Assembly (NCBI RefSeq): GCF_001506165.1 | Contig: NZ_CP011427.1 | Span: 3,596,001 to 3,660,000, forward strand | Reading direction: 5' to 3' | Origin: Pantoea vagans | GTDB taxonomy: Bacteria > Pseudomonadota > Gammaproteobacteria > Enterobacterales > Enterobacteriaceae | DNA: 64,000 nucleotides | In this document: positions 14,729 to 61,334 of the stretch, piece after piece | Numbering within the stretch: the stretch's first letter is position 1 | Layout of the letters: every line of letters starts with the position of its first letter | The notes under the pieces: generated by a model | Database searches by the model: none | Seen by the model: only the letters and a program-made list of their open reading frames with translations | Told to the model about the DNA's origin: nothing | Program-made: the position numbers and the translations under genes

Positions 14729-14985
14729 GCGCTTTCTCTTCTCTCTACTGCGTGCAATCGGCAGGATTGCCGAGAGGACAACGCGCTTCACACTAAGGAG
14801 AAAACTGTGCGCTGGATAACACTTTTTCGCTCTACCTGAATAGAAATAACTTATCGCCTTGGGTCATATCATTTCCCTATTGCATGCAACGCTTTCCCTC
14901 TTTTTCGACGTAAAACAAAGCCGATATAGTCCAGAAAAGCGAACTTTTGCGCTGCGAGGCAGCATCCACTATTGAGGGAATGCAC

Positions 14986-15825
14986 ATGACCATGAAAAGA
15001 CGTACTACCATCGGGTTGGCACTGCTGCCACTGCTGGCGATTTCGGCGGCGCAGGCAGACATGATGGCGAACATTAAATCCAGCGGCGAACTGAAGTGTG
15101 CCGTTTACTCTGACGTGCCTCCGTTCTCTTCACCGGATCCACAAACGCGCCAGCTGGCTGGGATGGATATCGATCTCTGTACCGCGTTAGCCAAACATAT
15201 GGATGTCAAACTCACGCTGGTGCCGACATCCGTTGAGGCACGTATTGCCGTTATTGCCACCGGCCGCGCCGATGTGTTGATTGCTAACCTCGCTTACACC
15301 AAGACCCGTGGTAATCAGATCCAGTTCAGCGATCCCTACTACGTAGCGAAGGAGATGTTGCTGGTCAAAGCTCCGCTGGCGGATAAGCCGTTGAGCTACT
15401 TCCAGGGCAAACGCATCAGCGCCACCAAAGGCACCACTTCTGAGCAGTCGATCCATATCAAGGGTGGCAAAGCCGTGACCTTCCAGGATTCCGCTTCGGC
15501 GTTCCTGGCGCTGGAACAGAACAAGTCTGTAGGCTTCGTCACCAACACCATGACCGGTATCAAAACCATTGCTCAGGCGAAAAAAGACGGCATCGATCTG
15601 GCGATGATCAAAGAGCCGATGGCGCTGGAGCCGATTGGTGTCGGCATGAAGAAAGATGAACCGGCGCTGCTCGCCAGCGTCAACAGTGGCCTGAAAGCCA
15701 TGGACGATGACGGCACCATCGATAAAATCTGGAACACCTGGATTGGGCCAAACACCGAATACAAGATGGTGCGTGAAGAGCGCGTACAGCCGCTCTCCAG
15801 TCTGAAATTTGAACCGCTGGAATAA
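14986..15825 (+). CDS. Amino-acid-type ABC substrate-binding protein (5-oxoproline cluster)
   Basis: Periplasmic solute-binding protein of family 3, 279 aa. The signal peptide (KRRTTIGLALLPLLAISAAQA) is followed by the typical lobe sequence beginning GELKCAVYSDVPPFSS. The second ATG of a cluster at 14980/14986/14992 has GAGGGA at the best spacing. It heads the pxpBCA operon, 2 nt before pxpB. The matching permeases and ATPase lie at 22.7-24.9 kb, so it probably delivers 5-oxoproline or a related amino acid to that transporter. Confidence 0.9.
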   Translation: MTMKRRTTIGLALLPLLAISAAQADMMANIKSSGELKCAVYSDVPPFSSPDPQTRQLAGMDIDLCTALAKHMDVKLTLVPTSVEARIAVIATGRADVLIANLAYTKTRGNQIQFSDPYYVAKEMLLVKAPLADKPLSYFQGKRISATKGTTSEQSIHIKGGKAVTFQDSASAFLALEQNKSVGFVTNTMTGIKTIAQAKKDGIDLAMIKEPMALEPIGVGMKKDEPALLASVNSGLKAMDDDGTIDKIWNTWIGPNTEYKMVREERVQPLSSLKFEPLE

Positions 15826-15827
15826 CC

Positions 15828-16538
15828 ATGCCCGTGATGTCGCCATCTGATATCCAGCCCGCCAGTGCCCCCGCGCTGGCTTGCTCCTCCGCGATTACCC
15901 TTTCCACCATCGGCGCGCGTGCGTGGCTGGTGGAAGCCCCGGGTGGGTTTGATCTCTCCGCCCAACGCCGCATCTGGTCACTGGCACGTCTGCTGCAAGC
16001 GGATGAAGCCGTTGAAGCCTTGATTCCTGGCGTCACCAATTTGCTGGTGCTCTTCCGCCACATCCCTGTTGATGAAGCCGCCGTTCGTCTTAGCCTGCAA
16101 GCGGCGTGGGATCAGGCTCAGGCGACCAGTCCGCAAGGCAAACTGATTGAAATCCCGGTGCATTATGGCGGCGAACACGCGATCGATATCGATGCGGTCT
16201 GCCGCCACACCGGCTTTAGCGCGCGCGAAGTGGTGCGTCGCCACCATCAGAGCGAATACACGGTGTTCGCCCTGGGCAGTGCGCCAGGCTTTGGTTATTT
16301 GCACGGGCTGGATCCGCAGCTGGCTACGCCAAGGAAGAAAGTACCGTCGCTAAGTATGTTGAAAGGCACGGTGACCATTGGTGGCGCGCAGGCGGGTGTG
16401 TCAGCGCTGACCGGCCCCAACGGCTGGAACGCTATCGGCTTTGCCGAACTGGATGTGTTTGATCCCTTGGCATCCTCGCCAGCCTTGATGGCACCGGGCG
16501 ATCGTATTCGTTTCCTGCCGCAGAGGATTGAACTGTGA
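15828..16538 (+). CDS. pxpB: 5-oxoprolinase subunit PxpB
   Basis: Subunit of the ATP-dependent bacterial 5-oxoprolinase that opens 5-oxoproline to glutamate. 236 aa, KipI/allophanate hydrolase subunit 1 family. The signature segments EIPVHYGGEHAIDIDAV, GSAPGFGYLHGLD and GTVTIGGAQAGVSALTGPNGW are all present. Start codon 2 nt after the binding-protein stop, and the end overlaps pxpC by 4 nt, indicating translational coupling. Confidence 0.95.
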   Translation: MPVMSPSDIQPASAPALACSSAITLSTIGARAWLVEAPGGFDLSAQRRIWSLARLLQADEAVEALIPGVTNLLVLFRHIPVDEAAVRLSLQAAWDQAQATSPQGKLIEIPVHYGGEHAIDIDAVCRHTGFSAREVVRRHHQSEYTVFALGSAPGFGYLHGLDPQLATPRKKVPSLSMLKGTVTIGGAQAGVSALTGPNGWNAIGFAELDVFDPLASSPALMAPGDRIRFLPQRIEL

Positions 16539-17521
16539 TTGAGATTGAACAAAGCGGTGCGCTTAACACAGTGCAGGATCTGGGACGCTTTAATTTTCGC
16601 CATATGGGCGTCTCGGTCAGTGGTGTGATGGATCCCCTGGCATTGCGCGCGGGCAATCTGTTGCTGGGGAATGAAGAGAATGCCGCGGCGATCGAAGTTC
16701 AACTGTTCCCGTTTCGCGTACGCTTTCTGCAAGACACCAGTATCGCCGTGACGGGCGCAGACTGCCGTACCACGCTGGATGGCGTCCCCCTGCCGCCTTG
16801 GTGGGGTTGTGGCGTGCGGGCGGGCCAGGTACTGGAAATGCGTTACCCTCGCAGTGGCGCGCGCGGTTATCTTTGCATCGCGGGCGGCATTGACGTGCCC
16901 GTGGTGCTGGGTTCACGAAGCACCGCACTGCGCGGCAGCTTTGGTGGACTGGAAGGCCGTCCATTACAACGCGGCGATCGGCTGCCGCTGGGTGAATCGC
17001 ACGCCTCAGCCCTTCCCGCCAGTGGGATTGGCATCGAACCGCCGGACAGCGCCCTGAGCGCGCATTTCCCGCGTAACAGTGCCGGTGAGATTCAGCTACG
17101 CGCGATTCCATCGGGTGAATATCCGCTGTTTGCTGCTGATGCACCGCGCTTCTGGCAACAATCCTGGCAGGTTTCCAACCAAAGCAACCGTACCGGTTAT
17201 CGGCTGGCGGGCGATCCGATTTTCCCCTCTGAAACCATCGAAATGCGCTCCTATGGCCTGATACCGGGCATTGTGCAGGTGCCACCTGGCGGCGAACCCA
17301 TTATTCAGTTGAGCGATGCTAACACCGCAGGCGGTTACCCGAAGATTGCCGGGGTGATCGAGCAGGATCTGTGGCGTTTGGGACAAGTGCTTCCCGGCCA
17401 GTCGATCCAGCTGATCCAGAGCGATGCGCGTGAAGCGATAGCGATCGATCAGGAAGTCACACGCTGGCTCAGCCGTCTGCGTCTCAGTTGCCCGCCGCTG
17501 CGCAAAGCGTTGACGGCATAA
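16535..17521 (+). CDS. pxpC: 5-oxoprolinase subunit PxpC
   Basis: Second subunit of 5-oxoprolinase, 328 aa, KipA/allophanate hydrolase subunit 2 family. The opening IEIEQSGALNTVQDLGR and the conserved SNRTGYRLAG and GGYPKIAGVI blocks identify it. The start is GTG inside a GTGA overlap with the pxpB stop. It forms the heteromer with PxpB and PxpA in the cytosol. Confidence 0.95.
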   Translation: MIEIEQSGALNTVQDLGRFNFRHMGVSVSGVMDPLALRAGNLLLGNEENAAAIEVQLFPFRVRFLQDTSIAVTGADCRTTLDGVPLPPWWGCGVRAGQVLEMRYPRSGARGYLCIAGGIDVPVVLGSRSTALRGSFGGLEGRPLQRGDRLPLGESHASALPASGIGIEPPDSALSAHFPRNSAGEIQLRAIPSGEYPLFAADAPRFWQQSWQVSNQSNRTGYRLAGDPIFPSETIEMRSYGLIPGIVQVPPGGEPIIQLSDANTAGGYPKIAGVIEQDLWRLGQVLPGQSIQLIQSDAREAIAIDQEVTRWLSRLRLSCPPLRKALTA

Positions 17522-17542: not shown

Positions 17543-18313
17543 ATGAAGATTGATGTGAATTCCGATATGGGCGAAGGCTTTGGCGTTTATCAACTGTGCG
17601 ATGACGCTGCGTTAATGAAGGTGGTGTCATCAGCCAATATCGCCTGCGGATTCCACGCGGGCGATCCGGCGATCATGACCAGGATGGTACGGCTGGCCAA
17701 AGAGAACGGTGTTGGAATTGGCGCCCATCCCGGCCTGCCCGATCGTCAGGGTTTTGGCCGCCGTGAATTACCGTTCAGCGCCGAAGAGATTTGCCAGCAG
17801 GTGGCGTATCAACTGGGTGCGCTGACGGCGATTGCCCAGGCGGAAGGCACCAAAGTGTCACACTTCAGCTTCCATGCAGCGATGGGCAATATCGTCAATC
17901 GCGATGAGGCACTGGCACAGCAGGTGATGGCGCTGATCGCCCGCATCAATCCAGATCTGATTGTGTTTGCCCAACCCGATACCATTATTGAGCGTGCGGC
18001 GCAGCAGGTGGGACTGAAAACCCTGACGCTGTTCCTGGCAGATCGCGCTTATGATGCGCAAGGACGTCTAGTGCCGCGCGGCATTGCCGGTTCCGTAATT
18101 AAAGAAGAGACCGCGCTGCGCGCCCGCGTGCGCCAGTTCCTGCAGCATGGCACCGTGACCACGTTCGAAGGGGAAGAGATTAGCGTGCGTGCGCGCTCGA
18201 TTCTGGTACACAGCGACACGCCGGGTTCACTGGCGCTCGCGACTATTGTGCGCAGTGAAATTGAAGCCAGCGGCCATCAGGTGGCACCCGCCGCAGAAGT
18301 CGTCGCGCAGTAA
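17543..18313 (+). CDS. pxpA: 5-oxoprolinase subunit PxpA (LamB/YcsF family)
   Basis: 256 aa. The N-terminus KIDVNSDMGEGFGVY and the ANIACGFHAGDP and GAHPGLPDRQGFGRR motifs are diagnostic for the LamB/YcsF family. It completes the minimal PxpABC enzyme. It starts 21 nt after pxpC with AAGGAA before the ATG. No clear terminator follows; instead a large structured element starts right after the stop. Confidence 0.95.
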   Translation: MKIDVNSDMGEGFGVYQLCDDAALMKVVSSANIACGFHAGDPAIMTRMVRLAKENGVGIGAHPGLPDRQGFGRRELPFSAEEICQQVAYQLGALTAIAQAEGTKVSHFSFHAAMGNIVNRDEALAQQVMALIARINPDLIVFAQPDTIIERAAQQVGLKTLTLFLADRAYDAQGRLVPRGIAGSVIKEETALRARVRQFLQHGTVTTFEGEEISVRARSILVHSDTPGSLALATIVRSEIEASGHQVAPAAEVVAQ

Positions 18314-18689: not shown

Positions 18690-19892
18690 TTAACGGCAAC
18701 CGGCGCAGAACGCTGCGATGCGATCACAACCGGTTTGCAAACGCTCCATGCTGGTGGCGTAAGAAATACGGAAGAAAGGACTCATCCCGTAAGCGGCGCC
18801 CTGCACCGTCACCACGTGCTGCTCTTCGATCAGCGCCAGCACAAAATCAGCATCATTGGTGATCAATCGTCCACCCGCGCTGGTTTTGCCAATCAATCCT
18901 TCAATATTTACAAACAGATAAAACGCGCCCTCTGGCTTATGGCAGCGTAAACCGTCAATCGAGGTCAGGCGCTCCAGCACGTAATCACGGCGCTCACGGT
19001 AAATACCTGCACGCTCCTGCAGCAGATCCTGTGGGCCTTCCAGTACCGCCACCGCTGCGGCTTGCGTCAAAGTGCACACACCACCACTGTTCTGCGTATT
19101 GACGTTACTCATGGCTTTAATCAGGGGGACAGGGCCACCACAGAAGCCGAGGCGCCAGCCCGTCATTGAATAAGCTTTAGACACGCCGTTCACCGTCAGC
19201 ACACGGTCATACAGGCGCGGCTCAACCTGCGCCAGGGTGTAAAAACGTACGTCGTCATAAATCAGGTGTTCATAGATATCATCGGTCATGATCCACACCT
19301 GCGGATAGCGCAACAGCACCTCGCCCAGCGCCAGTAGCTCAGCTTTGCTGGCAACCGAACCGGTAGGGTTACTCGGATAGTTCAGCAGCAGCCATTTGGT
19401 CTTATCCGTGATGGCAGCATCAAGATCGGCGGGCAACGGCTTAAATCCGTTCTCCTGCGCGCACGGTAGCGGCACGGGCACGCCGCCAGCAAATTTCACG
19501 ATATCGGCATAGCTGATCCAAGACGGCGTAGGGATCACCACTTCGTCACCCGGATTGATGGTGGCCATGATGGCGTTAAAGATGATCTGCTTCGCGCCAC
19601 CCGCGGTCAGAATCTGGCTAACGTCATAATCCAGCTGATTGTCACGCTTGAACTTCAGTTGAATCGCTTTGCGCAGTGCAGGCGTACCGTCGGTTGGTGG
19701 ATAACGCGTATCACCCGCGCGCGCGGCGGCGTAAGCGGCTTCAATAGCATGAGGCGGTGTGGGGAAATCAGGTTCACCGGTGGAGAGCGCCACCACATCC
19801 ACGCCCTGCGCCGCGAGGTCGCGCGCTTTCTGGGTCATGGCTACGGAGGCGGAAACGGTGACATTCTTTAATCGATCGGCTATCTCGGGCAT
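18690..19892 (-). CDS. Class I PLP-dependent aminotransferase (aspartate-aminotransferase type)
   Basis: 400 aa from the ATG of MPEIADRLKNV at 19892; a longer upstream frame is discarded because this start matches the family's usual length. Fold type I residues are visible: ALSTGEPDFPTP substrate region, NYPSNPTGS, TDDIYEHLIYDD, the PLP lysine in GVSKAYSMTGWRLGF, and the C-terminal FFRISYATS carboxylate-binding Arg. It is flanked by pxpA and the Nac-like gene. A likely role is to move the amino group of the glutamate made by PxpABC, but that is inference. The strand is opposite to the cluster. Confidence 0.9.
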   Translation of the reverse strand: MPEIADRLKNVTVSASVAMTQKARDLAAQGVDVVALSTGEPDFPTPPHAIEAAYAAARAGDTRYPPTDGTPALRKAIQLKFKRDNQLDYDVSQILTAGGAKQIIFNAIMATINPGDEVVIPTPSWISYADIVKFAGGVPVPLPCAQENGFKPLPADLDAAITDKTKWLLLNYPSNPTGSVASKAELLALGEVLLRYPQVWIMTDDIYEHLIYDDVRFYTLAQVEPRLYDRVLTVNGVSKAYSMTGWRLGFCGGPVPLIKAMSNVNTQNSGGVCTLTQAAAVAVLEGPQDLLQERAGIYRERRDYVLERLTSIDGLRCHKPEGAFYLFVNIEGLIGKTSAGGRLITNDADFVLALIEEQHVVTVQGAAYGMSPFFRISYATSMERLQTGCDRIAAFCAGCR

Positions 19893-20162
19893 GGTCAATC
19901 CTGGGTTCGGTGTCAGTTTCCCTGAGCATAGGATTAGGGCCGAGGCCACGATAATAGAGCTTTGTTGTGGTGATATAACACAAAGCGATGACTGGACCGA
20001 CTCCACACTTTTGTCATAAAGGTTTGGGATTGGCATAAAATTGCGCGGCAGGTCACGCCCATGCGCCTGACGCAATGTTAATAAAGTGTTACTTTTATCC
20101 GCGAGCCACATCTCGAACCCACGATTTTCCTTGCCCGCCATTGGCAATGCTGATGGGTAAAA

Positions 20163-20179
20163 TGCACCCTTTCGGTGCA
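20163..20179. promoter_or_regulatory. NtrC (GlnG) enhancer site
   Basis: TGCACC-N5-GGTGCA, a perfect 17-bp dyad identical in its arms to the established NtrC consensus. It is centred about 134 bp before the -12 element of the sigma-54 promoter of the Nac-like gene. Confidence 0.85.
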
Positions 20180-20290
20180 TCGCTGCTTTTTTCAACACCC
20201 GCCAGATCGGCGGATCGCAAACTCAGCACCAGCCTCAGGAGGCCCGGTAGCCGTACCCTCCTGTCTGAGTTCAATCACGAAAGCTTATAT

Positions 20291-20306
20291 TGGCATCAAC
20301 TTTGCT
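20291..20306 (+). promoter_or_regulatory. Sigma-54 promoter of the Nac-like gene
   Basis: TGGCATCAACTTTGCT has GG and GC exactly ten bases apart and fits TGGCA-N6-TTGC(A/T). The expected start of transcription is near 20317, 26 nt before the ATG, with GGAGGG between. Confidence 0.88.
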
Positions 20307-20342
20307 TGATACCGATATGCGTTCTTTTGGAGGGAAGTGCCC

Positions 20343-21266
20343 ATGAATCTTCGTCGCCTGAAGTATTTTGTTAAAATTGTTGATGTCGGTAGCCTGACTC
20401 AAGCCGCAGATATTCTTCATATCGCTCAGCCTGCGCTCAGCCAGCAGCTGGCCACGCTGGAGGGGGAAGTCAATCAACAGCTCTTGATCCGTACCAAGCG
20501 CGGGGTCACGCCAACCGAAGCAGGCAAAACACTCTATTCTCATGCCCAGTCCATTTTGCGCCAGTGCGAACAGGCGCAAAGTGCGATTGATTTGGTGGGT
20601 GCATCTCTCAGCGGCAGCGTCTCGGTGGGTCTGGCACCTGGCACCGCCGCGCAAAACCTCGCGTTGCCGCTGATGATGGAAGTGCAGCAACAGCATCCTG
20701 GCATCGTGCTGTATTTCAATGAAAACTTCGGCACCACGCTCAGCGAATTGATCATGAATGGACGCATGGATATGGCAGTGATCTACGATCATCGCAGCAT
20801 CCATGGCCTGCGCTTCATGCCGTTGATGAAAGAAGATTTATGCTTCGTCTGCCCGTTCAGCCTGGCGAAACCGGTTAAAGAAATTCCGCTGGCACAGGTT
20901 GCACAATACGACCTGTTCCTGCCGCGCATTTATAACATCATGCGCAAAGTACTGGATGACGCCTTCACGCAAAACAACCTGCAGTATCGCGTGAAATGCG
21001 AGATCGAATCACAAACCACGCTGAATGCCGCCCTCAGCGCAGGTTTAGGCACCACCATCATGCCGGAGTCTGCCGCACGTGCGCTGCTGAAAAACGGTGA
21101 TACCTGGATGGCGAAGATAGTTGAGCCAGATGTACAGGCCTCACTGTCGTTCTGTATGTCCGACCACCTGCCGCTCTCCCAGCCAGCTGAAGCAGTGAAA
21201 TCGATTCTGCTGTCGTTGATGTCTCGTCGCAATGTCGAGAACCATCCGCTGACCCTGGTGGGATAA
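20343..21266 (+). CDS. Nac-like LysR-family nitrogen regulator
   Basis: 307 aa LysR-type regulator. The first 75 residues (MNLRRLKYFVKIVDVGSLTQ, then HIAQPALSQQ and LLIRTKRGVTPTEAGK) are almost the same as Klebsiella Nac, the nitrogen assimilation control protein; the effector domain is more diverged. The ATG at 20343 follows GGAGGG at 20329. Its promoter is sigma-54 with an NtrC enhancer, the established mode of nac regulation. Whether this is the sole Nac or a cluster-specific paralogue cannot be told. Likely role: activate pyroglutamate uptake and breakdown under nitrogen limitation. Confidence 0.87.
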   Translation: MNLRRLKYFVKIVDVGSLTQAADILHIAQPALSQQLATLEGEVNQQLLIRTKRGVTPTEAGKTLYSHAQSILRQCEQAQSAIDLVGASLSGSVSVGLAPGTAAQNLALPLMMEVQQQHPGIVLYFNENFGTTLSELIMNGRMDMAVIYDHRSIHGLRFMPLMKEDLCFVCPFSLAKPVKEIPLAQVAQYDLFLPRIYNIMRKVLDDAFTQNNLQYRVKCEIESQTTLNAALSAGLGTTIMPESAARALLKNGDTWMAKIVEPDVQASLSFCMSDHLPLSQPAEAVKSILLSLMSRRNVENHPLTLVG

Positions 21267-21282
21267 GACCCGCTTATTACCG

Positions 21283-21369
21283 CAAAGCGAAACCCTCTTA
21301 CAGCCCGCCTGGCGAACGCGCTAGATTGATTTGGTCTGTTGCCCGCTAAGGCGGGCGTGTTTCGCTTTG
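21283..21369. other. Inverted repeats between the Nac-like gene and the biotin-carrier-like gene
   Basis: CAAAGCGAAAC (21283-21293) pairs with GTTTCGCTTTG (21359-21369). Inside, GCCCGC-TAAG-GCGGGC (21341-21356) is followed by GTGTTT and may serve as a weak terminator of the LysR gene. Confidence 0.55.
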
Positions 21370-21380
21370 ACGGGAACCCC

Positions 21381-21794
21381 ATGGAAAAAACCGCGATACC
21401 GCTGCCCACGCTGCGTGCGTTGGCGCGCAAAATGCAAAGCTCCGGCCTCAACAGTCTGGCACTTGAGGGCAAACAGTGGTCAGTACGTCTGACCTTCGCC
21501 CCAGCATGCCCCTCCCCCGTTATCCTGGCAGAGGAAACCCCACCGGCGACACAGGCGATTGGCGCCCCCATGCCGGGTACGCTGCTGCGCCGCCATCCTC
21601 TTAGCCAACAGGATTTTGTTCAGCCCGGTCAGCAGGTAGAAGCTCAGGATCTGCTCGCCGTGGTGCAGGTTGGCCCCTTGTATGTTCCGGTGCTCAGCCC
21701 GCTAAAAGGGCGTGTACACCAACTGACTCAACCCTCGAACAGCCCGGTTGAATATGCGGAAGAAATCATGACTATTCAGTCAGATAGTGAGTAA
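21381..21794 (+). CDS. Biotin/lipoyl-domain protein without the acceptor lysine (BCCP-like)
   Basis: 137 aa. The layout is that of the biotin carboxyl carrier protein: an N-terminal helical part, a Pro/Ala-rich linker, then a biotinyl-like beta domain (about residues 60-130) with GAPMPGTLLRR and VQPGQQVEAQDLLAVVQ. The biotin-accepting E-A-M-K-M motif is replaced by Q-V-G-P-L, with Pro99 where the lysine should be, so it cannot be biotinylated in the usual way. Such proteins often neighbour pxpABC-type genes together with a biotin carboxylase, but none is here. It may be a non-catalytic adaptor or a decaying remnant. The ATG at 21381 is preferred over an upstream start. Confidence 0.75.
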   Translation: MEKTAIPLPTLRALARKMQSSGLNSLALEGKQWSVRLTFAPACPSPVILAEETPPATQAIGAPMPGTLLRRHPLSQQDFVQPGQQVEAQDLLAVVQVGPLYVPVLSPLKGRVHQLTQPSNSPVEYAEEIMTIQSDSE

Positions 21795-21922
21795 ATAATC
21801 GGGTTATAAGGGGCACTTATCGCCTCAAAGTTTTTATGTCTTATGCCCTTGCGGCATAACTGCATAAAGTCAAAAAAGACCAATTACGCCGACAACACCT
21901 TCGGCGAGACGAGGAGAGGCAA

Positions 21923-22675
21923 ATGCCATTTTCAGATTATAAAACCGCGCTGGTCACTGGCGCATCCGCCGGTATGGGCGAAGCGATTGTTGAGCGTCTG
22001 TGCAAAGAAGGCATCACCGTGCACGCCGTCGCGCGTCGCAAGGAACAACTGGCCGCACTGGCCGATCGCACTGGCTGCATTCCCCATGCGGTGGATGTCA
22101 GTGACGTTAATGCGCTGACGGCACTGTGCAAAGATCTCGAGATCGACATTCTGGTGAATAACGCTGGCTTGTCGCACCCTGGCTCAATCCTCGACGCAGA
22201 TGAGAATGTGGTGGAGACGCAAGTTGACGTCAACCTGCGTGCGGTTTTACACCTGTGCCGTTTGCTGGTCCCTGGCATGGTGGCTCGTGACCGTGGCCAT
22301 GTGTTCAACATCACGTCGATTGCCGCGATTTACAACTTCAACGGCAACTCGGTGTACCACGCCACCAAAGCCGGTGTGCATGCCCTGTCACGCCAGCTGC
22401 GCGTTGACTGTTATGGCAAACGCGTGCGTATCACCGAAATCTGCCCTGGCCGTGTCGCCACCGATATCTTCGGCAATGTCTCTGGCGACCACGATGACGC
22501 TCGCCGCCGCTTCATTGATGGCTTCGAACTGCCGCAGGCCAAAGACATCGCCGACTGCGTAGCCTTTGCGCTCTCTGCCCCGGTGGCGGTGAATATCGGC
22601 AACATCGAAATCACCCCGACGCTGCAGGTGCCGGGCGGTCTTTCCACTATGCGACCGGGCGACCGCACCGCGTAA
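21923..22675 (+). CDS. SDR-family oxidoreductase
   Basis: Classical short-chain dehydrogenase/reductase, 250 aa. The cofactor motif TGASAGMG is at residues 12-19, NNAG is present, and the catalytic Ser and YHATK (Tyr/Lys) lie near 132-156. RBS GAGGAGAGG precedes the ATG. It resembles the YdfG/serine 3-dehydrogenase branch (EICPGRVATDIFG). It is followed by the permeases at 22 nt and so is part of the transporter operon. The substrate is unknown; an amino or hydroxy acid made around 5-oxoproline metabolism is plausible. Confidence 0.88.
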   Translation: MPFSDYKTALVTGASAGMGEAIVERLCKEGITVHAVARRKEQLAALADRTGCIPHAVDVSDVNALTALCKDLEIDILVNNAGLSHPGSILDADENVVETQVDVNLRAVLHLCRLLVPGMVARDRGHVFNITSIAAIYNFNGNSVYHATKAGVHALSRQLRVDCYGKRVRITEICPGRVATDIFGNVSGDHDDARRRFIDGFELPQAKDIADCVAFALSAPVAVNIGNIEITPTLQVPGGLSTMRPGDRTA

Positions 22676-22697: not shown

Positions 22698-23393
22698 ATG
22701 GCACTTGATTTCAGCAGTGTGATAACCGGCCATTACGGCCAGATGATCGTTGACGGAACGGTGGTCACCCTTGAACTGGCGTTAGGTGCCTGGCTGCTGG
22801 CAATGGTTCTTGCCCTGCTGCTGGTGGTGATCCGCCTGACGGAAAATCGTATTGCCGTTGGGCTGGTCAAAGCGTATGTCTCCTATCACCGTAATGTGCC
22901 CACCTTAATTCAGTTAATGATGTGGTACTTCGCGATCCCTACGCTGCTGCCGGAATCCGTGCAGATGCTGATAGTCGATTACAACGCTGAGTTTCTGTTC
23001 TCACTGGTTGCGCTCGGACTGTGTCAGGCCGCGTATTTCTCCGAAGACATTCGCAGCGGCCTGCGCGCCATTCCTGATGGACAAAACGAAGCGGCTCGCG
23101 CACTGGGCATGAGCTATGTGCGCGCCATGCGTTCCGTGATCCTGCCACAGGGCATTCGCAACGCGCTGCCATCCGTCATTAACCACACCGTGCTGCTGTT
23201 TAAAAACACCAGTCTGGCGATGGTCATCGGCGTGGCGGAGCTGACCTATGTCACCCGTGATATTGAGAACCAGACTTTCCGTACCTTCGAGTCCTACTTA
23301 GTGGCAACCGTGGGTTACCTGTTCTTCTCCCTGCTGCTGATGGGCCTTGGCGCGCTGCTGGCCCGCCGCTTCCAACGCGTCTACGCGAGGTAA
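22698..23393 (+). CDS. Polar amino acid ABC transporter permease
   Basis: Inner-membrane permease of the His/Glu/Gln family, 231 aa, with about five helices. The EAA-loop region reads GQNEAARALGMSYVRAMRSVILPQ, the usual contact for the ATPase. It overlaps the next permease by one base (TAATG). Together with the next gene it forms the heterodimeric channel. Confidence 0.93.
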   Translation: MALDFSSVITGHYGQMIVDGTVVTLELALGAWLLAMVLALLLVVIRLTENRIAVGLVKAYVSYHRNVPTLIQLMMWYFAIPTLLPESVQMLIVDYNAEFLFSLVALGLCQAAYFSEDIRSGLRAIPDGQNEAARALGMSYVRAMRSVILPQGIRNALPSVINHTVLLFKNTSLAMVIGVAELTYVTRDIENQTFRTFESYLVATVGYLFFSLLLMGLGALLARRFQRVYAR

Positions 23394-24160
23394 TGGCAAT
23401 GTTTGAGATTTTCACCATTTTGCATGACAACGGCATGCTGCTGTTAATGGGCCAGTACCCTAATGGCCCGCTGGGCGGCGTGCTCTGTACCCTGCTGATT
23501 TCAGTGCTGGCCGTGCTCTTTGCTTTCCCCATCGGGGTGCTGCTGGGTCTGGCGCGACTGTCTCCGTGGCGCTGGCTGAGCTGGCCTGCCACCTGCTGGG
23601 TCTATTTGCTGCGCGGCATTCCCCTGATGATGGTGGTGTTCTGGACCTACTTCTGCGTACCGCTACTGATTGGCCACAACATCAGCGGCTTCGCCACCAT
23701 GCTGTGTACGCTGGTGATTTACGAAAGTGCCTACATCGCCGAAATCGTACGTGGCGGCATTCAGGCCTTGCCACACGGACAGTATGAGGCCTCACGTGCG
23801 CTGGGTATGAGCCACCTCAAAACCTTGCGTTTGGTGATTCTGCCGCAGGCGCTGTTCAACACCTTGCCAAGCCTGGTGAGCCAGTTGGTGTCGATCATCA
23901 AAGACTCGACGCTCGGCTACGTGATTAACGTACCGGAGCTGACCTTTGCCGCGAATCAGGTGAGCAACCAGTTACTGACGAAACCGTTCCAGGTATTTGC
24001 GATTGTGGCGCTGAGCTATTACATCATCTGCTTCAGCCTCACCTGGCTTGCCAATAAACTCGAAGCGCATATTGCGCAGAAACGTCGCCAACCGCCGCAG
24101 GCCAATGCCAATGCCAATGTGGCACCCGCGGTGATGCTGACTAAAACCTCTTCGCAATAA
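23393..24160 (+). CDS. Polar amino acid ABC transporter permease (second subunit)
   Basis: 255 aa permease of the same family. The EAA loop (GQYEASRALGMSHLKTLRLV) is followed by LPQALFNTLPSLVSQLV. The start codon shares its A with the stop of the upstream gene, so translation is coupled. The C-terminal tail is polar and Ala/Asn rich. Confidence 0.93.
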   Translation: MAMFEIFTILHDNGMLLLMGQYPNGPLGGVLCTLLISVLAVLFAFPIGVLLGLARLSPWRWLSWPATCWVYLLRGIPLMMVVFWTYFCVPLLIGHNISGFATMLCTLVIYESAYIAEIVRGGIQALPHGQYEASRALGMSHLKTLRLVILPQALFNTLPSLVSQLVSIIKDSTLGYVINVPELTFAANQVSNQLLTKPFQVFAIVALSYYIICFSLTWLANKLEAHIAQKRRQPPQANANANVAPAVMLTKTSSQ

Positions 24161-24169
24161 GGAAGCTTT

Positions 24170-24907
24170 ATGAGCCCAATGATCATGTTTAATCAGGTCA
24201 ACAAATGGTACGGCGCTTATCAGGCGCTGACTGACCTGAGTGCCGAAATCAACACCGGTGAAGTAGTGGTGGTGTGTGGTCCGTCCGGTTCGGGTAAATC
24301 GACACTGATCCGCACCGTCAATCGCCTCGAACCGATTGATAACGGCCAAATTGTGTTTAATGGCATTGATATTCACGGCAGCAGCACGCGGTTGAACCAT
24401 CTGCGCACCCGGATTGGCTTTGTGTTTCAGAGCTTCAACCTGTTCCCACACGTCTCGGTGGCTGAAAACATCATGATGTCGCCGATGAAAGTGTTGGGTG
24501 TGAAACGTGCCGAGGCGCGCCAGCAGGCGGGGGAGTTGCTGGAGCGAGTGGGGTTATCCCATAAAGCGGATGCCTACCCGGCACAGCTCTCCGGCGGCCA
24601 GCAGCAACGCGTGGCGATTGCCCGTGCGCTGGCGATGAAACCACCGGTGATGCTGTTTGATGAACCGACCTCCGCGCTCGATCCCGAGATGGTCGGCGAA
24701 GTCTTGTCGGTGATGCGCAGTCTGGCGCAGGAAGGCATGACCATGATGTGTGTGACGCACGAAATGAATTTTGCCCGCGAAGTGGCGGATACCATCTGGT
24801 TTATGGATCAGGGGCAAATTCTGGAGAAAGCGACGCCTGAGAACTTCTTCAATCAGCCACAGCACCCGCGTGCGCAGCGCTTTTTGAGTGATTTGCGATC
24901 GCATTGA
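24170..24907 (+). CDS. Polar amino acid ABC transporter ATP-binding protein
   Basis: 245 aa GlnQ/HisP-type ATPase. Walker [10 protein letters not shown] (about residues 38-46), the signature LSGGQQQR, Walker [15 protein letters not shown] and the switch His in CVTHEM are all intact. It ends the pyroglutamate-cluster transporter operon and is followed by a good terminator. With the binding protein at 15.0 kb and two permeases it makes a complete importer. Confidence 0.95.
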
Positions 24908-41560: not shown

Positions 41561-43528
41561 ATGCGTACCATTGAGCGTTTACCCTTTAAAGATGAAAGCG
41601 ACCCCATCTTCAGCCTGCCCAACAGTGCAGAAGTGGGCGAATGGGATACGCTGCTGTGGCAGGGTTGGCACAGTTTTGAACGAGGTGAGCAGCCGCGCTG
41701 GATGCGGCGAAGCATTTTGCACTCCTGGCAGCGCTCGCAGCAGCGTGCCATCGACCCCACGACCTTTGTTTATACCTCTCCGCCCGGCGAGGAGCTGGCG
41801 GCGATCCTGGAACACAATGCCGAGCTGATCCTGGTGGCACGCAACGTGATGGAGAACCTGCTGGCCTACAACCCGGACGGCCATATCAATCTCACTGATG
41901 CGCAGGGTGTCACACTGCATTTCTGCGGTTCCGATCTGACACCTGTTGGCAGCATCCTCAGTGAAGAGGTGCTCGGCACCAATTGCACGGCACGCTGCCT
42001 AATCGAGCAACGCCTGGTGTATGTGCTGAGCGGGGAGAACTGGAAGATCGATTTACGCAATCGCCACTTTCAATGCGCCGCCGCACCGGTACGTGACGCA
42101 AGCGGTCAAATGCTAGGCGTGCTGACACTGACCGCTACGCCGGATAACTTCAATACCCACACGCTGGGTACCGTACAAGCCGCTGCGGAAGCAGTGGGAC
42201 AGCAACTGACGCTGCGCCGTTTACTGGCCGAGCAGCAGTCGATTCTCGAAACCTTGAATGAAGGCGTGATCGTCTGCGATCGCCACGGTCGCATTAAAAC
42301 CCTGAACCGCTATGCACGGCAGATTTTCAGCGGCCTCGATCCCGATGCCGGGCCGATCGATGTCCTGCTGCAGCCGCAAGGTGGATCGTTACTTACCATG
42401 CCGTTTTGCAACGACCGCGAGATGCAGTTCATCCCGGATGGCATCCAGCCCCTCTCCTGCCTGATTTCCCTTATGCCCGCGCCCGATGGCGGTCGCGTGC
42501 TCTCTCTGCGTGAGAACCAGCGTATCCGCGCGATCACACGCCGCGTGATGGGGGCCAGCGCCAGCTACACCTTCGAGATGATTCGCGGCCACGCCCCGCT
42601 TGTGCAGCAGGCGATTCAGAAAGCGCGCGCCAGCAGCCGCACAGACAGCACAGTGTTGTTAAGCGGTGAAAGCGGTACCGGTAAAGAGTTGTTTGCCCAG
42701 GCGATTCACAATGCCAGCCCGCGTCATCAGGAACCGTTTATCGCGCTCAACTGCGGCGCACTGCCACGCGATCTGGTCCAGAGTGAACTGTTTGGCTATG
42801 TCGATGGCGCATTTACCGGCTCACGGCGTGGTGGCTCAGCCGGTAAATTCGAACTGGCAGAGGGCGGCACGCTGTTTCTCGATGAGATTGCCGAGATGCC
42901 GTTAGAGGCGCAAACCAGTTTGCTACGCGTCTTACAGGAAGGTGAAGTGGTGCGCATCGGCGCGGCGCATCCGCTGAAAGTGAACGTACGCATCATCGCC
43001 GCCACGCACTGCAATCTGCTGGATGCCGTGGAGAAAGGCGCCTTTCGTCGCGATCTCTACTACCGCCTTAACGTTATTTCGCTGGAGATACCGCCACTGC
43101 GCCAGCGTCAGGAGGATATTCCAGGATTGGTGAATACCTTTATTGTCGCGCTCTGTACCCGGCTGAAACGCATTGCCCCCCAAATGTCGCCTGAAGCGAT
43201 GAGCTGTTTGCAGGCGTGGCACTGGCCGGGCAACGTGCGTGAATTGGAGAATCTGGTCGAGCGTATGGTGAACCTGTGTGAAGGGCTGGAGATCGGCAGG
43301 CAAGATTTGCCCGAGGAGATGACGCGACGGGCTTCAGTGACCGACACCAGTACATTGACGTCATTGCAGGATAAAGAGCGCCAGCATGTCTTGCAGGTAG
43401 TGAGTGAACACAAAGGCAATCTGCGCCAGTCCGCGCAGCTGCTGGGGATTTCCCGCACGGCGCTGTATAACAAATTGAAGTTGTGGCAGGTGGACGTGGC
43501 CGCAATAAGAAATGGATTAGCATTGTAA
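41561..43528 (+). CDS. Sigma-54-dependent activator, AcoR-like
   Basis: 655 aa from the ATG at 41561, preceded by CAGGAG. An N-terminal GAF-type sensor (about 60-220: VMENLLAYNPDGHINLTD, SEEVLGTNCTARCLIE) is followed by a PAS-like segment (about 230-330). The AAA+ domain has Walker A GESGTGKE (369-376) and Walker B LFLDEIAEM, and a Fis-type helix-turn-helix ends the protein (NLRQSAQLLGISRTALYNKLK). The sigma-54 contact loop reads GAFTGS (416-421) where most activators have GAFTGA. Divergent from the sigma-54-driven IolG-like operon, its obvious target. Confidence 0.92.
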   Translation: MRTIERLPFKDESDPIFSLPNSAEVGEWDTLLWQGWHSFERGEQPRWMRRSILHSWQRSQQRAIDPTTFVYTSPPGEELAAILEHNAELILVARNVMENLLAYNPDGHINLTDAQGVTLHFCGSDLTPVGSILSEEVLGTNCTARCLIEQRLVYVLSGENWKIDLRNRHFQCAAAPVRDASGQMLGVLTLTATPDNFNTHTLGTVQAAAEAVGQQLTLRRLLAEQQSILETLNEGVIVCDRHGRIKTLNRYARQIFSGLDPDAGPIDVLLQPQGGSLLTMPFCNDREMQFIPDGIQPLSCLISLMPAPDGGRVLSLRENQRIRAITRRVMGASASYTFEMIRGHAPLVQQAIQKARASSRTDSTVLLSGESGTGKELFAQAIHNASPRHQEPFIALNCGALPRDLVQSELFGYVDGAFTGSRRGGSAGKFELAEGGTLFLDEIAEMPLEAQTSLLRVLQEGEVVRIGAAHPLKVNVRIIAATHCNLLDAVEKGAFRRDLYYRLNVISLEIPPLRQRQEDIPGLVNTFIVALCTRLKRIAPQMSPEAMSCLQAWHWPGNVRELENLVERMVNLCEGLEIGRQDLPEEMTRRASVTDTSTLTSLQDKERQHVLQVVSEHKGNLRQSAQLLGISRTALYNKLKLWQVDVAAIRNGLAL

Positions 43529-60914: not shown

Positions 60915-61334
60915 AGTTTTTATCCCATCCTCAATCACTGTTCCGGCTGGCGTCATTGCACCAACCTGGTGAAAAGCCCTTTGCTGGCTCTCATTATGTT
61001 TTTCCGGCCACAGAGTGCGGCATCTTGCAGGTACAGGCAATGGCTAGCCGTGCGCTTTAAAAACAGTTGCTTATCTTAAATTCTGCTAAGCATAGAGTTC
61101 TGAATATTAGCAGGCTGATTGTTTTTAACCGAAAATATCCAAATCATTCCGAAAGTTCCAATAACTATTTAATTATTACCGCTTCGCTGGCGATTATCTC
61201 TTTATCAGAGACAGCTAAAAAACGTGATCTTTTCAAACAAATCGGTCTATATTGGAAGTGTAAAAATCACAGCAGTCTTGCCGTCCTTATAATAATTAAG
61301 ACGCTCCAATTAATTAATTTATTCGCAGAGATAA
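60915..61334. other. AT-rich gap between MFS and the EAL-like gene
   Basis: About 420 bp, low GC. A 100-codon frame (61067-61369) overlaps the next gene, has poor start context and no domain, and is rejected. It probably holds both divergent promoters. Confidence 0.6.

Follow-up and report, generated by a model that had tools for sequence, protein, structure and literature searches.

What is a Nac-family regulator doing inside a gene cluster for lactam use? In the 64,000-nucleotide stretch of Pantoea vagans DNA analysed here (the window), a LysR-type gene, called nac2 in the following, is embedded among pxp and ABC-transporter genes, which raises the question of whether the enteric nac has moved into such a cluster or whether the cluster-bound form came first. 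Read from sequence, and with considerable confidence, the locus would encode a two-step nitrogen cascade in a lactam cluster, the lactam being probably 5-oxoproline, and the linked regulator would be older than the stand-alone Nac of enteric bacteria.

In having a dedicated regulator adjoining pxpABC and an uptake gene, the locus resembles PxpR-pxpTABC of Corynebacterium glutamicum, as that system is presented in the accessible text of a 2026 paper (PMC13274462). According to the same text, PxpR is a GntR repressor that senses 5-oxoproline and is accompanied by an NRAMP-type transporter, whereas Nac2 combines a LysR helix-turn-helix (HTH) with an effector domain. The accessible part of that paper also describes the C. 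glutamicum pxp system as absent from the nitrogen starvation stimulon, and the regulation of bacterial 5-oxoproline metabolism as previously unstudied to its authors' knowledge (PMC13274462). No Nac-type regulator in a pxp cluster is described in the open-licence literature, among the matches listed, and the accessible portions of five further papers contain nothing on a Nac-type regulator of pxp (PMC8443478, PMC12316311, PMC8282354, PMC9068703, PMC9731577). The link of nitrogen starvation control to pxp-type lactam use is apparently new.

The pxp cluster and its distribution

The order of the cluster in Pantoea is SBP-pxpB-pxpC-pxpA, a divergent aminotransferase gene, nac2, a biotinoyl-like gene, an SDR gene, two permease genes and an ATPase gene. 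A preliminary description of this DNA had placed the regulator in a pxpABC and ABC-transporter setting, and family profile matches at the locus agree. Coordinates are those of the window unless prefixed C1, the single contig of the 4.31-Mb genome.

14986..15825, + strand: ABC amino-acid-type substrate-binding protein, SBP (Pfam SBP_bac_3)
15828..16538, + strand: PxpB-type subunit (TIGR00370, 159 bits, cut-off 145.55)
16535..17521, + strand: PxpC-type subunit (TIGR00724, 308 bits, cut-off 230; equivalog model NF045499, 295 bits, cut-off 500)
17543..18313, + strand: PxpA-type subunit (NF003814, 330 bits, cut-off 226)
18690..19892, − strand: aspartate-type aminotransferase, divergent from nac2 (family profile matches)
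20343..21266, + strand: Nac2, second Nac-family LysR regulator (NCBIfam NF008410, 505.1 bits, cut-off 309; Pfam HTH_1 and LysR_substrate)
21381..21794, + strand: biotinoyl-domain protein without the biotinyl lysine (family profile matches and alignment)
21923..22675, + strand: SDR-family dehydrogenase (family profile matches)
22698..23393, + strand: ABC amino-acid permease 1 (family profile matches)
23393..24160, + strand: ABC amino-acid permease 2 (position and homology)
24170..24907, + strand: ABC amino-acid ATP-binding protein, GlnQ-like (family profile matches)

The nac2 gene starts with the ATG at 20343, preceded by GGAGG, and its product passes the curated NAC equivalog model NF008410. 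The closest named records, at 98% protein identity, belong to Pantoea rodasii, Ca. P. formicae, P. rwandensis and Pantoea sp. alder81; two records labelled Enterobacter cancerogenus and one from Erwinia sp. S63 also stand at 98%. Nac2-type genes occur as well in Erwinia, Brenneria, Lonsdalea and others. The search for a second nac elsewhere in the genome, proposed in the preliminary description, locates the host's canonical copy at C1:1414220, with cbl downstream and 58% identity to Nac2. Because the two fall into separate clades and are separate genes, nac2 is not the orthologue of the cbl-adjoining nac of Klebsiella and Escherichia coli. Among 36 members of the genus, this one included, 34 carry a gene at 57–59% identity, taken as canonical; the window-type nac2 (at least 83% identity) is found in 15 of the 36, and 14 of those 15 carry both.

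Alpha-, beta- and gammaproteobacteria alike have nac linked with genes of the pxp, aminotransferase, SDR and ABC types. Pxp genes are present in the fetched stretch of 65 of 80 Nac-family loci and absent from that of 13, which come from Rahnella, Rouxiella and one Serratia sp. (L080, L095, L107, L111, L119, L121, L122, L124, L129-L132 and L134); the remaining loci, L096 and L126, have other cluster genes only, with no pxp gene in the fetched stretch. The Pantoea-group loci L041-L066 hold Nac2 and the cluster genes together. Burkholderia, Bradyrhizobium, Microvirga and most loci of Pseudomonas and Variovorax have the regulator first and the other genes behind it, all in one direction and with accC in between; another arrangement, without accC, is seen in Pseudomonas L097, L110 and L113. 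The accC gene occurs in 38 of the 65 pxp-linked loci. The Nac-annotated LysR genes in the accBC-pxp clusters of Pseudomonas, Variovorax, Burkholderia and Bradyrhizobium are comparable to nac2 in their kinds of neighbours and in operator geometry (see below), whereas the Pantoea cluster is split into several units and accC is found in none of the 24 enterobacterial loci among the 65. More distant relatives in Rhizobium and Sinorhizobium, 42–46% identical, still lie with pxpABC, aminotransferase, SDR and ABC genes. On a Rhizobium leguminosarum plasmid (L170), a Nac relative of 43% identity has an aminotransferase gene on one side and, in place of pxpABC, a hydantoinase/oxoprolinase gene on the other. 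A Neorhizobium relative lies near an aminotransferase gene and SDR genes, and its 10.9-kb stretch contains no pxp gene.

Some cluster genes show peculiarities of their own. The biotinoyl-domain protein at 21381-21794 has VQVGPLYVPV in place of the EAMKM motif; an alignment of the 'second' carrier proteins from alpha, beta and gamma clusters shows that these lack the lysine too, while EAMK is retained by the first accB in the clusters of Bradyrhizobium and Burkholderia. In P. rodasii (L041/L055) two adjacent SBP matches of 93% each indicate a tandem copy or a split gene.

The nac2 promoter

Two elements precede nac2:

20163..20179, no strand assigned: NtrC-type dyad TGCACC-N5-GGTGCA, TGCACCCTTTCGGTGCA, centred at about −146 from the predicted start
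20291..20306, + strand: sigma-54 −24/−12 element TGGCATCAACTTTGCT, predicted start at about 20317

The preliminary description had called the dyad perfect, the −24/−12 element consensus and the distance between them 134 bp. The dyad TGCACCCTTTCGGTGCA has no mismatch, and 134 bp do separate its centre (20171) from the C of the −12 element. The sigma-54 element retains the GG-N10-GC arrangement (GG at 20292-20293, GC at 20304-20305) but is only near-consensus, as TGGCATCAACTTTGCT departs from TGGCACG-N4-TTGCW at two positions. Three perfect NtrC dyads exist in the whole genome, and about 3e-4 would be expected by chance per 450-bp intergenic stretch. Judging the −24/−12 element by its own statistics was abandoned, matches with at most two mismatches numbering 27 in the window against 19.4 expected, which is not significant; the dyad and the sigma-54 element gain significance as a pair because they are conserved among relatives.

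This conservation is seen within the genus and beyond it. In the 15 genus loci with nac2, own locus included, the −24/−12 element is always present, at −51 to −53, and the dyad is recognizable with at most two mismatches in 13 and with three in the other two. It lies at −179/−180 in 12 loci and between −128 and −158 in the three that diverge more, with free variation in the five bases of its spacer. The wider comparison covered the upstream regions of 97 Nac-family genes, thinned at 96.5% identity; a sigma-54 match was defined by at most three mismatches with GG and GC required, and a dyad by at most two mismatches at 60–250 bp upstream of the element. Sigma-54 matches precede canonical nac (20/20), enterobacterial pxp-linked genes (26/26), the unlinked genes of Rahnella, Rouxiella and Serratia sp. 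(11/11) and those of Pseudomonas (11/11), together with 13/21 beta/alpha and 1/8 outgroup genes. The dyad and sigma-54 pair is found in 18/20, 18/26, 10/11, 3/11, 0/21 and 0/8 of these groups, respectively, where shuffles predict at most 0.04 per group. Gammaproteobacterial Nac-family genes therefore have a sigma-54-type element in 68/68 cases, joined by a suitably placed NtrC dyad in 49/68; a paired dyad at no more than two mismatches is lacking in 8/26 enterobacterial linked genes and 8/11 Pseudomonas genes. Beta/alpha linked members are often without a clear sigma-54 element, and 9 of their 13 matches lie only 26–28 bases before the start codon. Such a placement is seen in Variovorax (L085, L090, L093, L096, L098, L099, L103, L114 and L120), where the element, if used, would give an almost leaderless mRNA; these matches may be due to chance.

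The trans-acting components are encoded in the same genome, which has one NtrC gene over the cut-off (C1:4160116, near glnA) and one RpoN gene (C1:3571082). One-mismatch dyads precede both glnA and the host's canonical nac. The nac2 promoter has a single NtrC site, with no second one at up to four mismatches in 400 bp. A sigma-54 promoter with an NtrC enhancer is a criterion of Nac; sequence and conservation in relatives point to a promoter of this type at nac2, as had been proposed.

Other candidate elements of this kind occur outside the cluster. The two further perfect dyads of the genome, C1:845255 and C1:454243, each precede a sigma-54 match, by 59 or 81 bases; the former is near an SsuA-like binding-protein gene and the latter near a gene without an NCBIfam match at E 1e-30. 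Within the window, a one-mismatch NtrC-like dyad, TGCACCAACCTGGTGAA, is located at 60957-60973, and an NtrC-family AAA+ domain at 42560-43438, in a 716-amino-acid open frame, marks a candidate further sigma-54 activator.

Predicted Nac2 operators and rival readings

Boxes of the form ATAAG-N5-CTTAT, or the looser ATA-N9-TAT, are associated with three units of the cluster:

14840..14854, no strand assigned: predicted Nac2 operator 1 of SBP-pxpBCA, ATAGAAATAACTTAT, looser ATA-N9-TAT form (upstream alignment)
14866..14880, no strand assigned: predicted Nac2 operator 2 of SBP-pxpBCA, ATATCATTTCCCTAT, looser form, 59 bases start-to-start before the −10
14925..14930, + strand: −10 hexamer TATAGT of the SBP-pxpBCA unit (in 17/17 distinct sequences among box-bearing loci)
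21263..21277, no strand assigned: predicted Nac2 operator ATAAGACCCGCTTAT, overlapping the nac2 stop codon (motif match)
21322..21327, + strand: −10-like hexamer TAGATT, 59 bases past the box start
21806..21820, no strand assigned: predicted Nac2 operator ATAAGGGGCACTTAT, before the SDR-ABC unit (motif match and conservation)
21865..21870, + strand: −10-like hexamer TAAAGT, 59 bases past the box start

The motif emerges from an unbiased enumeration of all 5-gap-5 words with gaps of 0–12 and no motif named beforehand: ATAAG-N5-CTTAT is the top word, present in 53 of 55 thinned SDR upstream regions, and the best shuffled word reaches 2. All SDR loci scored are near a Nac-family gene; the ATA-N9-TAT core is upstream of SDR in 86/86 of them (some genomes repeated) against 2.6 expected, and ATARG-N5-CTTAT stands within 150 bp in 70 of 73 non-repeated loci. 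Elsewhere in the clusters, no strict box was found within 150 bp upstream of permease 1 (0/71), permease 2 (0/71), the ATPase (0/80), SBP (0/69), the aminotransferase (0/72), RraA (0/25) or EamA (0/18); the counts are 1/45 for accC, 1/71 for pxpC, 3/72 for pxpA, 3/70 for pxpB and 22/88 for nac. A box at the nac stop codon or up to 250 bases beyond it is shared by 64 of 88 loci; all 13 unlinked copies lack one. SBP genes carry the looser form: among 38 upstream regions, some from repeated genomes, 30 have at least one ATA-N9-TAT box and 28 have two (expected 1.7 and 0.03). The eight with no loose box before SBP are L068, L073-L076, L083, L092 and L127, and in all of these except L068 the SBP gene sits at the cluster's far end.

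The host genome has seven perfect ATAAG-N5-CTTAT sites, two of them inside the cluster and 543 bases apart. The operator is not enriched genome-wide (52 matches at no more than one mismatch versus 87 for the reversed control), and genome-wide counts were dropped as evidence. No ATA-N9-TAT box is present in nac2's own promoter (window 19880-20345).

Spacing to a −10 hexamer recurs in all three promoter classes, the distance from box start to −10 start being most often 59 bases. A hexamer with A at position 2 and T at position 6 occurs at this offset in 66/69 SDR, 52/60 nac-stop and 17/17 distinct SBP sequences, the last class consisting of loci with a box, and 59 is the best of the offsets 40–75 in each class. 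Enterobacterial nac-stop sequences follow the rule in 15 of 23 cases, the remaining 8 having the hexamer one base later. The box centre lies 57 bases before the end of the −10, or at about −64 if transcription starts 7 bases further on, which is the position of Nac at hutU of Klebsiella. Nac activates sigma-70 promoters through ATA-N9-TAT type sites near −64. A plain sigma-70 scan detects none of the three −10 sites, presumably because a matching −35 is absent.

Canonical nac promoters contain the box as well: 14 of the 20 have it with no more than one mismatch, where 0.2 would be expected, and those of E. coli and Klebsiella have it with two. There it is situated between the NtrC dyad and the sigma-54 element, a placement that fits the repression of nac by Nac. 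Since the box is common to canonical nac promoters, both Nac proteins may share targets. Of the 11 representatives of the unlinked Rahnella, Rouxiella and Serratia sp. genes, 10 have an ATA-N9-TAT box that is adjacent to the NtrC-like dyad or overlaps it. A G+C-rich hairpin with a weak T-run at 21340-21357, between the −10 at 21322 and the biotinoyl-like gene, is a candidate nac2 terminator or leader attenuator.

These sites admit other readings. The dyad at 20163-20179 could be an intrinsic terminator or an incidental hairpin, in view of a mechanical scan in which 20162-20180 resembles a + strand terminator. This is scarcely credible: the upstream aminotransferase is on the other strand, so nothing on the + strand needs ending there, and the dyad recurs before a −24/−12 element in relatives, with one-mismatch versions preceding glnA and canonical nac. 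The notion that canonical Nac (Nac1) mainly controls the cluster through the shared operator, with Nac2 as a minor or antagonistic paralogue, draws on the nearly identical DNA-binding domains and on the same box in canonical nac promoters. It is unlikely all the same, as box and linked regulator co-occur in Pseudomonas, betaproteobacterial and alphaproteobacterial loci, although an unlinked copy may exist there too, and Nac2 shares one locus with the cluster genes throughout Pantoea-group L041-L066.

A further reading accepts the boxes and turns on the substrate, which might be a lactam or carboxylated amide other than 5-oxoproline. Another lactam is conceivable because PxpC, at 295 bits, is below the equivalog cut-off of 500 and because the genome holds a further pxpBCA set (C1:2816369-2818643, L186), 38–40% identical to that of the window and with no ATA-N9-TAT box in its 8-kb stretch. 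The accB and accC genes of related clusters and the hydantoinase/oxoprolinase gene that replaces pxpABC in one relative lean the same way. PxpA and PxpB, however, pass their curated cut-offs, and an amino-acid-type ABC transporter suits a small amino-acid-like lactam. A different substrate is a serious but lesser possibility, and 5-oxoproline, which the preliminary description suggested as a dedicated nitrogen source, is the likely one.

The proposed two-step cascade would begin with nitrogen shortage, when phosphorylated NtrC would bind the dyad at 20163-20179 and activate sigma-54 RNA polymerase at 20291-20306, so that Nac2 is made. Nac2 would then bind the ATAAG-N5-CTTAT and ATA-N9-TAT boxes and activate three sigma-70 units, SBP-pxpBCA, the biotinoyl-like gene and SDR-permease-permease-ATPase, whose products would take up the lactam and open it. 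Directly visible in the sequences are the sites and how they are conserved, the 59-base spacing that recurs, the linkage of the genes, and genes for NtrC and RpoN. Binding, the direction of regulation and the substrate are predicted; the boxes would be occupied by Nac2 rather than Nac1, or possibly by both, and Nac2 may respond to an effector.

Relationship of Nac2 to the stand-alone Nac

Nac2 resembles Nac of Klebsiella and E. coli (nac-cbl) in its NtrC/sigma-54-type promoter, its near-identical DNA-binding domain and the same type of box. Canonical nac, unlike nac2, lies beside cbl and outside any pathway cluster, and its effector domain has diverged. In E. coli, nac-cbl is among the tabulated NtrC ChIP-seq targets in the accessible text of one study (PMC4066584), and Nac belongs, as far as the available part of another goes, to a network expanded relative to Pseudomonas (PMC6053447).

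The near-Nac DNA-binding domain noted in the preliminary description is borne out: it is 88.7% identical to that of canonical Nac in the host, and the figure for Klebsiella Nac is 90.3%. Effector domains tell the proteins apart: identity to Nac2 is 41–49% for three canonical Nac proteins, 51% for a linked Bradyrhizobium protein and 57% for a linked Pseudomonas protein, whereas the DNA-binding domains of all five are 89–90% identical to that of Nac2. A Rhizobium relative has 40% and 65% identity in the effector and DNA-binding domains, respectively. In the alignment, 140 columns have the same residue in 93% or more of the 58 linked rows; for 14 of them, that residue is never present in the 20 canonical rows. 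A single one of the 14 falls in the DNA-binding domain, and several involve mild substitutions, V to I for example. The divergence of the canonical effector domain resembles what loss of a ligand could look like. Nac is not known to need a co-effector.

In the main tree of 97 rows, with rhizobial relatives as the outgroup, canonical Nac forms one clade (100/100) on a long branch, nested in the linked family next to Enterobacterales members. Forcing all ingroup non-canonical rows into one clade is rejected (p-AU 0.00067, dlnL 42), and forcing the pxp-linked rows alone together gives p-AU 0.0028, the groups for these tests having been named only after the tree was inspected. An early tree with three distant LysR outgroups placed the root inside canonical Nac, with branch lengths near 10, and rooting on those three proteins alone was dropped for saturated branches. 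A quick tree under a simpler model, with seven distant LysR proteins and the rhizobial rows, again has canonical Nac inside an Enterobacterales clade (98) and a gammaproteobacterial clade (94); it was not rooted on the seven far LysR rows because they are not one clade. The sister-group relationship of A and B is weak, at 90/53 in the main tree and 15 in the seven-LysR tree.

That nac was duplicated from the canonical enteric gene into the pxp cluster, as the preliminary description had offered as an option, would agree with the 88.7% identity of the DNA-binding domains and with the common promoter plan. It is nevertheless very improbable. The canonical copy remains beside cbl at C1:1414220, and the tree with canonical Nac outside a non-canonical clade is the one rejected above. 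The linked form is moreover widespread, being present in Pseudomonas, Variovorax, Burkholderia, Bradyrhizobium, Microvirga and Rhizobium, so no enteric nac donor is needed there.

The linked state is probably ancestral as well as widespread, and comparison among relatives suggests that the stand-alone enteric Nac of E. coli and Klebsiella descended from older, cluster-bound regulators. On balance, Nac is somewhat more readily seen as an escaped pathway regulator than otherwise. An ancestral LysR protein would have run a pxp/aminotransferase/SDR/ABC lactam cluster through ATAAG-N5-CTTAT, and by the time gammaproteobacteria arose its gene would have acquired an NtrC/sigma-54 promoter. A copy would then have left the cluster in Enterobacterales with its promoter and operator specificity kept and, as its effector domain diverged, become an adapter for nitrogen control at large; the original would survive as Nac2.

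These comparisons provide a testable origin for Nac, a classic global regulator, and a candidate operator with recurring promoter geometry that is common to three classes of Proteobacteria. They also bear on annotation: outside the enterics, a gene that automatically receives the NAC label may be a cluster regulator and not the global regulator, and the same may hold for Nac2 inside that group.
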